A stretch of 64,000 bases of DNA, from assembly GCF_030145815.1 (NCBI RefSeq), contig NZ_JAIXHL010000006.1:124001-188000 (forward strand), in the 5' to 3' direction. Within the stretch, counting starts at the first letter, position 1. Every line of letters starts with the position of its first letter. Positions 4,866-14,365 of this stretch are shown here, in pieces. The translations under genes were made by a program, and so were the position numbers. The notes under the pieces are model-generated. The model was given only the letters and a program-made list of their open reading frames with translations, made no database searches and was not told where the DNA came from. This stretch comes from Sphingomonas sp. Its GTDB lineage: Bacteria; Pseudomonadota; Alphaproteobacteria; Sphingomonadales; Sphingomonadaceae.

Positions 4866-4988
4866 CTGCCTCTAGCACCGCATGCCGCCGCGATCATCCC
4901 CTGTTGGCAAAACGATATCCGGTTGCCGCACCCCGTGCCCCCCGGCTATGCGTGCGCCAGTTTCGACGGACGAAGGCCCGCCACGCAT

Positions 4989-6278
4989 ATGAACAACGCG
5001 CTCGGACTGCTCAAAGAGCGCCGGTTTCTCCCCCTGTTCGTCACGCAATTCCTGGGGGCGTTCAACGACAATCTGTTCAAGACTGCGATGGTCCTGTTCG
5101 CCACCTATCAGGTGCTGAACGATCCAGAGACGGAATTCATGTTCAACGCGCTCGCCACCGGCGCCGCGCTGCTCCCGTTCGTCTTGCTCTCGGCACTGTC
5201 CGGCCAGCTCGCCGACACCTATGACAAGGCGCAGATCATCCGGTGGGTAAAGACCGCCGAGATCGGGATCATGCTCTTCGGCGGCGGCGGGATCATCGTC
5301 GCGCATTTCGGTTATCCGATGATCGGGGTCGGCATGATGCTGGGCGCGGTGCTGATGCTTGGAACCCACTCCACCTTCTTCGGCCCGATCAAATATGCGA
5401 TTCTGCCGCAGCATCTGAAGGAGGACGAAGTCCTCGGCGGCACCGGTATGGTCGAGGCCGCGACCTATCTTTCGATCCTGCTCGGCACCGTGGTGGCGGG
5501 TTGGGTATCGATCGAGACCGCTGGCTGGCTGACGCTGATCGTCGCGGTGATCGGCTGGTTCACCGGGCGCATGGTCCCCGCCGCACCGCGTCAGGGCGCA
5601 AAGCTCAAGCTTAACTTCAACCCGTTCACCGCATCTTGGCGGCTCATTGCCAACACGATGCACATCCCGCGCCTGTTCTGGGCGATCTGCGCGATCAGCT
5701 TCTTCTGGACGATGGGCGCGGTGCTGATTGTGATCTTCACGCCGCTTGCCAAGAATGTGCTGACGTCCACCAAGGAAGTCGCCAGCCTGATGATCGCGAC
5801 CTTCTCGGTCGGTGTCGCGATCGGCTCGGTGATCATCAACGCAATGCTCAAGGGTGAGATTTCGGCGAAATACTCGCCTATCTCGGTGATCGCGATGGCG
5901 GTCTTCATCGTCGCCTTCTCGTTTGAATCGCGCTTCTGGATCCCCGCTGCGCCTGGCGAGCTCTACGACATGATCGGCTTCATCGTGATGCCACAGGCCT
6001 GGCTGGTGCTCGCGACGTTGATGGCGATCGCGATCGCTGGTGGCATGTTCGTGGTCCCGCTCTACGCATTCCTCACAACCACCGTGACCAAGGATCAGAC
6101 TGCCCGCACAGTGGCGGCGAACAATATCGTCAACGCCTTCGGGATGGTGCTGGGCGCATTGCTGGTGATTGCGATCACCGCATTGAGCTTCGGGCCGGCG
6201 GATCAGTTGCTGTTCGTCGCGGGCATGGCGATCATCTCGGCGTGGATCGCCCAGCGGCTGCACCGCGCCTGCGACTAA
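4989..6278 (+). CDS. LplT-like MFS transporter
   Basis: This 429-residue inner-membrane protein has about twelve hydrophobic segments. Its start, FLPLFVTQFLGAFNDNLFKTA, is characteristic of the major facilitator branch that includes the lysophospholipid flippase LplT and the transporter half of LplT-acyltransferase fusions. In that family it returns lysophosphatidylethanolamine to the inner leaflet for reacylation. No acyltransferase domain is fused or adjacent here, so the substrate is inferred. The ATG at 4989 precedes the first helix; the very long open frame upstream (from 3978) is antisense to pgsA/moaD and is ignored. The neighbouring pgsA gives a loose phospholipid context. Confidence 0.8.
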   Translation: MNNALGLLKERRFLPLFVTQFLGAFNDNLFKTAMVLFATYQVLNDPETEFMFNALATGAALLPFVLLSALSGQLADTYDKAQIIRWVKTAEIGIMLFGGGGIIVAHFGYPMIGVGMMLGAVLMLGTHSTFFGPIKYAILPQHLKEDEVLGGTGMVEAATYLSILLGTVVAGWVSIETAGWLTLIVAVIGWFTGRMVPAAPRQGAKLKLNFNPFTASWRLIANTMHIPRLFWAICAISFFWTMGAVLIVIFTPLAKNVLTSTKEVASLMIATFSVGVAIGSVIINAMLKGEISAKYSPISVIAMAVFIVAFSFESRFWIPAAPGELYDMIGFIVMPQAWLVLATLMAIAIAGGMFVVPLYAFLTTTVTKDQTARTVAANNIVNAFGMVLGALLVIAITALSFGPADQLLFVAGMAIISAWIAQRLHRACD

Positions 6279-6293
6279 CGCAGCGCGGGCCGT

Positions 6294-6461
6294 TCAGAAA
6301 ATGAACGTGTAGATACAGACAAAGAACGCCGTGAAGCTCATGGCGAACAGCTTGAGGTCGCCATCATCCTCACGGCGACGCACCTGCGCGCGTACATGGG
6401 GGAGGTTGGCCCGAAAGGGGTGGCTCCGGCTGGCGCCGGTCAGGATGAGGTCGCGTCGCAT
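6294..6461 (-). CDS. Small single-span membrane protein (55 aa), unknown function
   Basis: Reading the minus strand from the ATG at 6461 gives a 55-residue protein ending in a TGA at 6294. The N-terminal half is basic and soluble (MRRDLILTGASRSH, then an RRREDDGD stretch). The C-terminal 20 residues form one hydrophobic helix (LFAMSFTAFFVCIYTFIF), so it should be a tail-anchored membrane peptide. I do not recognise a named family. It is supported by a clean hydrophilic/hydrophobic division, sensible codon use, and two near-consensus CtrA boxes within 55 bp upstream. A strong Shine-Dalgarno is lacking. It is convergent with the MFS gene, 15 bp away. Confidence 0.6.
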   Translation of the reverse strand: MRRDLILTGASRSHPFRANLPHVRAQVRRREDDGDLKLFAMSFTAFFVCIYTFIF

Positions 6462-6470
6462 GGCAGGAAG

Positions 6471-6485
6471 TTAACGCGCCGTTTA
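6471..6485. promoter_or_regulatory. CtrA-like box TTAA-N7-TTTA
   Basis: TTAACGCGCCGTTTA matches the alphaproteobacterial CtrA consensus TTAA-N7-TTAA at 7 of 8 fixed positions. It lies 9 bp before the start codon of the 55-residue membrane protein gene, close enough that binding there might repress rather than activate. Confidence 0.4.
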
Positions 6486-6500
6486 CACTTTCGGCCATCC

Positions 6501-6515
6501 CTAAAGGATCGTTAA
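6501..6515. promoter_or_regulatory. CtrA-like box CTAA-N7-TTAA
   Basis: CTAAAGGATCGTTAA matches TTAA-N7-TTAA at 7 of 8 fixed positions and is followed by C, extending the usual TTAAC half-site. It lies 39 bp before the 55-residue gene. It is nearly identical in form to the box before the PilZ gene at 14351 (CTAAAG-NNN-CGTTAACG in both). Confidence 0.45.
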
Positions 6516-6573
6516 CGCCTGTGCCGATGCGGGACGGGCAGGCCACCCTCCGGCTCCGTACGAGCCAAAGAAA

Positions 6574-6601
6574 AGGCCGGTAGCGCGATGCGCTCCGGCC
6601 T
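6574..6601 (-). terminator. Rho-independent terminator of tRNA-Ala
   Basis: On the minus strand AGGCCGG-AGCGC pairs with GCGCT-A-CCGGCCT around a 3-nt loop, followed by TTTCTTT. It begins 16 nt after the tRNA 3' end, so it terminates the tRNA transcript. Confidence 0.85.
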
Positions 6602-6616
6602 GTTTCTTCAAAGGGA

Positions 6617-6692
6617 TGGTGGAGCCGAGGGGGATCGAACCCCTGACCTCTGCAATGCCATTGCAGCGCTCTCCCAGCTGAGCTACGGCCCC
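6617..6692 (-). tRNA. tRNA-Ala (anticodon GGC)
   Basis: The minus strand folds into a complete 76-nt cloverleaf including the encoded CCA. The acceptor is GGGGCCG/CGGCTCC and contains the G3-U70 wobble pair that identifies alanine tRNAs. The D arm is GCTC...GAGC, the anticodon stem CTGCA/TGCAG encloses the loop ATGGCAT (anticodon GGC), and the T arm AGGGG-TTCGATC-CCCCT is standard. It reads GCC and GCU codons. Confidence 0.98.
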
Positions 6693-6761
6693 ATCCGTTC
6701 CGGGAAGGCGATGGCCTTTAGCAGCCACCGCGCGGTGTGCAACCGCTTTTTTCCCCGGGTT

Positions 6762-7082
6762 TCAGGTTTCTTCGTCGGTGTCGCCGGTATCGACGCCCAG
6801 ATCGTCGTCGCCGCCCAGATCGACGTCATCGTCGGGCGAACCCTCGGCGTCCTCGTCGATGTCCAGATCCTCGTCACCCAGATCAGTGTCGTCCTTCTTC
6901 ACCTTCTCGATGTCCGCCTTCACCGCCTCGAACGGCAGCGGCTGCTTCGACTTCAGGATTGGCTCGGGCTCCCAGGCATAGCCGCAGCTGATGCAGGTGA
7001 CCGGCTCATCCTTGGTCAGATCGTAAAAGCGCGTTGCGCATTTCGGGCAGGTCCGCTTCGTGCCCCATTCCGGCTTCACCAT
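6762..7082 (-). CDS. FYDLN-acid family protein (TIGR02300), zinc-ribbon with acidic tail
   Basis: A 106-residue protein with an N-terminal four-cysteine zinc ribbon (Cys12, Cys15, Cys30, Cys33) containing the signature TRFYDL. Its C-terminus, from about residue 62, is almost entirely Asp, Glu and Gly. This combination defines a conserved alphaproteobacterial family of unknown function named after the FYDLN motif; the acid tail suggests protein or metal binding. The ATG at 7082 places the ribbon at the expected position; an upstream in-frame start adds 27 unlikely residues. It is divergent from aroA and lies just downstream of the tRNA locus on the opposite side. Confidence 0.85.
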   Translation of the reverse strand: MVKPEWGTKRTCPKCATRFYDLTKDEPVTCISCGYAWEPEPILKSKQPLPFEAVKADIEKVKKDDTDLGDEDLDIDEDAEGSPDDDVDLGGDDDLGVDTGDTDEET

Positions 7083-14350: not shown

Positions 14351-14365
14351 CTAAAGCCGCGTTAA
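14351..14365. promoter_or_regulatory. CtrA-like box upstream of the PilZ gene
   Basis: CTAAAGCCGCGTTAA, followed by CGG, matches TTAA-N7-TTAA at 7 of 8 fixed positions and has the same CTAAAG-NNN-CGTTAACG form as the box at 6501. It starts 23 bp upstream of the PilZ start codon, a plausible position for CtrA activation near -35. Confidence 0.45.

Follow-up and report, generated by a model that had tools for sequence, protein, structure and literature searches.

Caulobacter CtrA acts as an activator from sites near -35 and as a repressor from sites over -10 (PMC6180460; PMC4287350). At hemE Ps, CtrA sites at -35 and -10 repress cooperatively (PMC11264516). Other Caulobacter promoters are controlled jointly by CtrA and SciP, whose full motif, GCGNC-N5-GNCGC, lies between -60 and -90 relative to the start site (PMC4287350). 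Sphingomonad CtrA has been tied to motility, exopolysaccharide and c-di-GMP signalling (PMC8921679); our literature search found no mapped CtrA regulon for Sphingomonadaceae. A genome-wide map of start sites exists for Novosphingobium aromaticivorans (cited in PMC8407463).

The window (the whole stretch of Sphingomonas DNA analyzed, 64,000 nucleotides) carries a small gene that, on balance, probably encodes a family-specific tail-anchored protein whose expression would be timed in the cell cycle by CtrA~P at CtrA-like sites before the gene. On the minus strand the order is GTCCC-N5-GGCAC (6535-6521), a distal CtrA-like box TTAACGATCCTTTAG (6515-6501), a proximal CtrA-like box GTAAACGGCGCGTTAAC (6486-6470), eight bases and the ATG at 6461 of the 55-codon gene (6294-6461, stop included). 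Both boxes had been reported in a first-pass annotation and were recovered where it had put them: TTAACGCGCCGTTTA (6471-6485) and CTAAAGGATCGTTAA (6501-6515) on the plus strand, each matching TTAA-N7-TTAA at 7 of 8 positions. Its distance of 9 bp to the start codon is also correct for the 15-bp box on the gene strand, TAAACGGCGCGTTAA, and becomes 8 for the 17-bp box, which reads GTAAAC-N5-GTTAAC and contains TAAA-N7-TTAA. Two adjacent near-sites had been judged unlikely by chance; the window holds 7 near-sites where 0.96 are expected, a number that none of 100 shuffles reached.

Like hemE Ps, the locus has two near-consensus CtrA sites, at what would be the -35 and -10/start positions; these positions are predicted here from sequence. 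Unlike hemE Ps, which has a consensus site at -35 (PMC11264516), the locus has an unrelated, family-restricted gene and two sites of 7/8 each. Further differences are that the GTCCC-N5-GGGAC element is extra here and that the distal site of relatives is half or absent. The combination of a CtrA-like box, a GC-rich dyad upstream and an encoded SciP also recalls the Caulobacter promoters co-controlled by CtrA and SciP. In several other genera the right arm of the dyad is GCGAC, which equals the published SciP half motif GCGNC. The window dyad, GTCCC-N5-GGCAC, does not match the full SciP motif and, in our placement, would lie closer to the start site. A direct repeat TGA-N8-TGA is given for CenR in PMC9275681, and reading the minus strand from 6540 to 6462 revealed neither TGA nor TCA. 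SciP and CenR were rejected as binders on these grounds, since the published motifs do not match.

The 55-codon ORF is a genuine gene. Loss of the ORF and boxes from close relatives had been named as evidence that would count against the annotation, and the locus withstood this test strongly: a single 55-residue query found homologues in 70 of 72 other genomes of the genus (71 of 120 genomes matched, including its own). The two genus genomes without the gene have completeness of 85% and 83%. The same query gave no match in the 47 genomes that lie farther away within the order, and near-identical small proteins are encoded in two named Sphingomonas records. In pairwise codon comparisons of 70 genus sequences, pN was below pS in 2391 of 2415 pairs; the mean pN/pS was 0.11 in the 24 closest pairs and rose to 0.74 among the most distant pairs, for which pS approaches saturation. 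For these and the identity comparisons below, L034 (a copy of L005) and L005 itself (protein identical to L001) were removed; L034 was dropped throughout, and a partial match in G018 was left out. A 31-row profile matched 148 of 296 genomes of the order, all in the same family except for one weak, stop-containing match. With a 33-row profile, 152 of 249 family genomes and 60 of 96 genera were matched. Because the first look of the profile search scores a limited number of candidates per genome, the 97 genomes without a match may include both overlooked genes and true absences. Of 385 genomes sampled across the class, 5 matched, all 5 in the same family. By sequence matching, then, the gene appears so far only in its own family, which is Sphingomonadaceae judging by the named records.

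Downstream, an MFS transporter gene (4971-6278, plus strand; PF07690) converges tail-to-tail on the small gene, and this arrangement recurs in 17 of 20 hand-picked loci, the neighbor not being found in the stretch in the other 3. Upstream lies tRNA-Ala (GGC) (6617-6692, minus strand; Rfam RF00005), followed by a strong hairpin with a T-rich 3' arm (6567-6609, minus strand; fold z-score -4.44 for 6540-6612). The hairpin probably separates the tRNA transcript from the small gene and suggests that the latter has its own promoter, with the reservation that it is missing from the list of a simple terminator scan. A link between the small gene and tRNA-Ala was considered and dropped, since ARAGORN found tRNA-Ala upstream in just 7 of 71 genus loci (up to 700 bases examined per locus, some stretches being shorter, down to 211). 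The names we use for other neighbors without a Pfam match, which are pgsA, moaD, moaE, LysR and a gcrA-like ORF, are presumed assignments, some of them read by eye.

Among the 71 genus homologues, the small proteins are 53-62 residues long with a net positive N-terminal part, and follow the pattern M-x-R-x-L-x-L...RHPFRR...D-x-KLF-x-LSFTAFF-x-CFYTFI. The annotation had described a tail-anchored membrane peptide of 55 residues, and the prediction holds across the genus: the last 17 residues are uncharged in 71 of 71 homologues, and the best 17-residue hydrophobic window ends 0-1 residues from the C-terminus in all of them. A single-sequence AlphaFold2 model consists of one helix (19-54), with pLDDT of 91-94 over the tail and a mean of only 72.4. 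On the strength of its C-terminal hydrophobic segment, the product is classed as a predicted tail-anchored membrane protein. Nine residues do not vary in the 31-row genus alignment (M1, H14, R17, D35, L38, F39, S42, F46 and F47); H14 is the sole invariant residue in the 33-row family alignment. Across the family, the products are predicted inner-membrane proteins of ∼50-80 residues; the basic N-terminal part carries a conserved motif of the HPFR type, and the C-terminus forms the predicted transmembrane anchor. Diverged homologues without the HPFR motif are encoded at three loci of genus g33 (L140, L141 and L142); L141 and L142 have several TTAA-type half-sites upstream, and their start codon is uncertain.

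The protein had been suspected of being undescribed, and it has no Pfam or NCBIfam family match. When 33 members were scanned at E values up to 0.1, NCBIfam gave 0 matches and Pfam gave only UBM, in 2 members with a best E of 0.047. A profile search of solved structures returned only weak Reticulon-4 matches (E 0.29 or worse), and a literature search, mostly aimed at CtrA, found no account of the protein and no binding or expression results. SidA and DidA, damage-induced division inhibitors of Caulobacter, are small single-pass inner-membrane proteins from another order. The protein here resembles them in being tiny, in having one (predicted) transmembrane helix and in its putatively regulated expression. 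Its N-terminal part is probably cytosolic, and we infer a membrane or cell-envelope role. The most economical guess at function, from the shape of the protein, is a membrane-anchored adaptor.

Conservation of both boxes in relatives had been proposed as a check. The proximal box is nearly universal, and all that is kept of the distal box is a TTAAC(C) half, in 51 of 71 genus loci. We examined 131 loci, of which 75 are from the genus and 56 are from 27 other genera, the latter hand-picked among 118 family matches outside the genus so as to spread over those 27. A box of at least 7/8 lies within 45 bases of the ATG in 118 of the 131 loci (72 of 75 in the genus, 46 of 56 outside it), as compared with means of 0.92 and 0.70, respectively, and a maximum of 3 each in 50 dinucleotide shuffles. 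Such a box ends 6-12 bases before the ATG in 116 of 131 loci but before only 1 of 171 control ORFs (≥200 aa; mechanical ORFs, spurious ones included), and 26 of the 27 other genera have at least one locus with a box so placed. Ten of the 56 other-genus loci have no 7/8 box, and for some of these the wrong start codon was perhaps chosen. Full 8/8 boxes are rare (1/75 genus and 4/56 other-genus loci).

Within the box, conservation is concentrated at the CtrA positions. Mean pairwise identity at these eight positions is 0.955 (70 sequences), as compared with 0.57 for the N7, 0.61 for the 11 bases ahead of the box, 0.32 for the spacer between box and ATG, 0.28-0.32 for three nearby spacer stretches and 0.51 for fourfold sites within the ORF. 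In its second half the box is almost fixed (T 71, T 71, A 68 and A 71 of 71 genus loci). The first half reads TAAA in most genus members, and TTAC or TTAG are frequent in other genera. In three genus loci (L026, L031 and L032) the box has become a perfect palindrome, GTAAAC-N5-GTTTAC, at 6/8. Additional letters are conserved in the 71 genus loci, namely G before each half, C after each and TGG-N-C-N-AAA ahead. ATGG directly precedes 26 of 44 other-genus boxes, so that many of these read ATGGTTA, the reverse of TAACCAT; an ungapped CtrA variant, TTAACCAT, is described in PMC6180460. With no more than one mismatch to TTAA-N7-TTAA and conservation beyond background, the upstream region has the sequence features of a putative CtrA-regulated promoter.

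In the mechanism that we propose, CtrA~P would bind both CtrA-like sites and so time expression in the cell cycle. CtrA at the proximal box would cover the -10/start region and repress, and the upstream half-site, at the expected -35 position, would either stabilize repression or activate. Repression is the likelier effect of the proximal box because, with the start codon fixed by protein conservation, an activating site only 9 bases from the ATG would put the transcription start within the gene. We infer CtrA as the binder, the promoter positions and the sign of control. Note that a sigma-70 consensus scan of 6260-6780 found no promoter, which makes the -10/-35 placement weak in this species.

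Of the other ways in which the locus could work, one that we regard as possible though unlikely is that CtrA activates from the distal half-site at -35 and that the proximal box merely modulates. Half-sites at -35 are used by Caulobacter CtrA for activation (PMC4287350), and the distal half-site, where there is one, mostly begins 28-30 bp above the 15-bp proximal box, a plausible -35 position. It is missing from many loci, whereas the proximal box is nearly universal. In relatives, TTTAG (the second half of the distal box) is not kept, and a TTAACC-type half-site, 27-29 bp above the beginning of the proximal box, is present in 51 and absent in 20 of 71 genus loci. In a spacing analysis that kept 113 of 131 loci (box ≥6/8, dyad ≥8/10 with N5), 51 of 69 genus loci have TTAAC or TAACC in the interval from dyad to box; 16 of 44 other-genus loci do as well, and the remaining 28 lack it.

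The dyad in that analysis is a third conserved element, upstream of the boxes, that the first-pass annotation missed. In the window it is an imperfect inverted repeat (6521-6535, minus strand; GTCCC-N5-GGCAC), and the family consensus is GTCCC-N5-GGGAC. Matches of at least 8/10 occur in 120 of 131 loci, as compared with a letter-shuffle mean of 9.7 (largest 15) and with 15, 5 and 7 for three control dyads of similar composition in the same loci. When spacings of 3-7 were allowed, the spacing was 5 in 115 of the 120 best dyads. This looser search weakens the margin over shuffles: the observed 73 of 75 genus and 47 of 56 other-genus loci compare with means of 17.1 and 10.8, respectively, in dinucleotide shuffles at ≥8/10. 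The usual distance of the dyad above the distal half-site is 4-5 or 8-10 bp. In 23 of the 28 other-genus loci without a half-site it is 27-28 bp above the proximal box, and its right arm (GNGACA) stands ∼18 bp away from an AT-rich hexamer that precedes the box, a pair that in our own reading could be a promoter. On visual inspection the right arm varies more than the left and often disrupts pairing, so that the dyad looks like a putative binding site rather than an RNA stem. A genome scan for the N6 form gave 18+29 matches versus 30+22 for the control; the window dyad, being N5, falls outside that scan, and a second genome scan, with a minimum gap of 6, likewise excludes the gap-5 site of the window.

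It is rather unlikely, in our judgment, that in place of CtrA the proximal box binds another regulator dedicated to the small gene, such as an OmpR-family protein recognizing an 11-bp direct repeat (GTAAAC / GTTAAC). The genome encodes one clear CtrA, with 79% identity over 224 residues to a Caulobacter sequence (next best 37%) and with an identical DNA-reading helix (ELKIIDVFICKLRKKL) by the same comparison, and one SciP (PF06627). The rarity of the site speaks for a dedicated regulator. The extended 17-bp box GTAAAC-N5-GTTAAC has a single perfect match in the genome, the locus itself, and with up to 2 mismatches it is found 31 times per strand versus 65 and 50 for controls. Exact TTAA-N7-TTAA occurs at one (palindromic) place versus 10 for the reversed control, so the consensus alone lists no regulon here. 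With both the consensus and the extended box rarer than controls, there is no enrichment and no sign of many sites, which is odd for a global regulator. The letters conserved around the two halves, beyond what the CtrA consensus demands, would also suit another protein. Against this, CtrA is favored by the TTAA-N7-TTAA spacing, by the ATGG ahead of boxes in other genera (26 of 44) and by the separate TTAACC half-site; the motif of CenR is absent from 6462-6540, and similar degenerate boxes occur in the ctrA promoter and beside the gcrA-like gene. The ctrA promoter box, TTAGGGCAAAATTAA (7/8; own genome C4, L245, upstream of 71470), is at -103 from the ATG with GANTC sites near, an arrangement that suggests possible autoregulation and CcrM input. 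The 300 bases before sciP contain no box better than 6/8.

Two other sites were noted in this genome. A one-mismatch extended box, TAAACGGTCGTTTAA (7/8; own genome C5:85312-85328, L078), lies ∼40 bases after the ORF that we take to be gcrA-like and ahead of a small membrane-type ORF, and is another candidate CtrA site. In the window, a further 7/8 near-site, CTAAAGCCGCGTTAA, is found at 14351-14365. It follows a mechanical ORF at a distance of ∼200 bases, and no further ORF of more than 120 aa is listed within 400 bases.

A poorer explanation, and in our estimate an improbable one, is that the conserved block serves as a core promoter, 5' leader or translation element rather than as a binding site. 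The block is within 30 bases of the ATG and partly overlaps the expected -10 and leader, no Shine-Dalgarno sequence is visible by eye, and the stretch ahead of the box (-11 to -1) is itself conserved at an identity of 0.61. Identity is nevertheless highest in two half-sites spaced by 11 bp, between which the sequence varies more (0.57); this pattern and the empty sigma-70 scan speak against that explanation. A structured RNA was rejected because, in an Rfam search of 6280-6780, only the tRNA reached the gathering score. Chance boxes before a spurious ORF, an idea to which the shortness of the ORF and its lack of a known family lend some color, have almost no prospect of being correct and are ruled out by purifying selection, synteny, the conserved box and matches in 60 of the 96 family genera sampled.

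The preferred reading remains that of a small gene controlled by CtrA~P through the sites in front of it. A fuller version of it is tentative, and we would not expect all of its parts to hold. The product would be a core protein of the family under cell-cycle control, a tail-anchored adaptor with a cytosolic RHPFR segment serving as the docking site for a factor of division, polarity or the envelope. A three-element promoter, composed of a CtrA box over the start, a half-site at -35 and GTCCC-N5-GGGAC for a second regulator, would confine its expression to the low-CtrA window of the cycle.

For experiments, the locus offers a precise target of 17 bp and 55 codons, and its third element may lead to a new partner of CtrA. 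As far as sequence can indicate, the small gene is a promising candidate cell-cycle target in Sphingomonadaceae. A site so strongly kept before a family-restricted gene makes that gene a likely candidate for core membership of the sphingomonad CtrA regulon.
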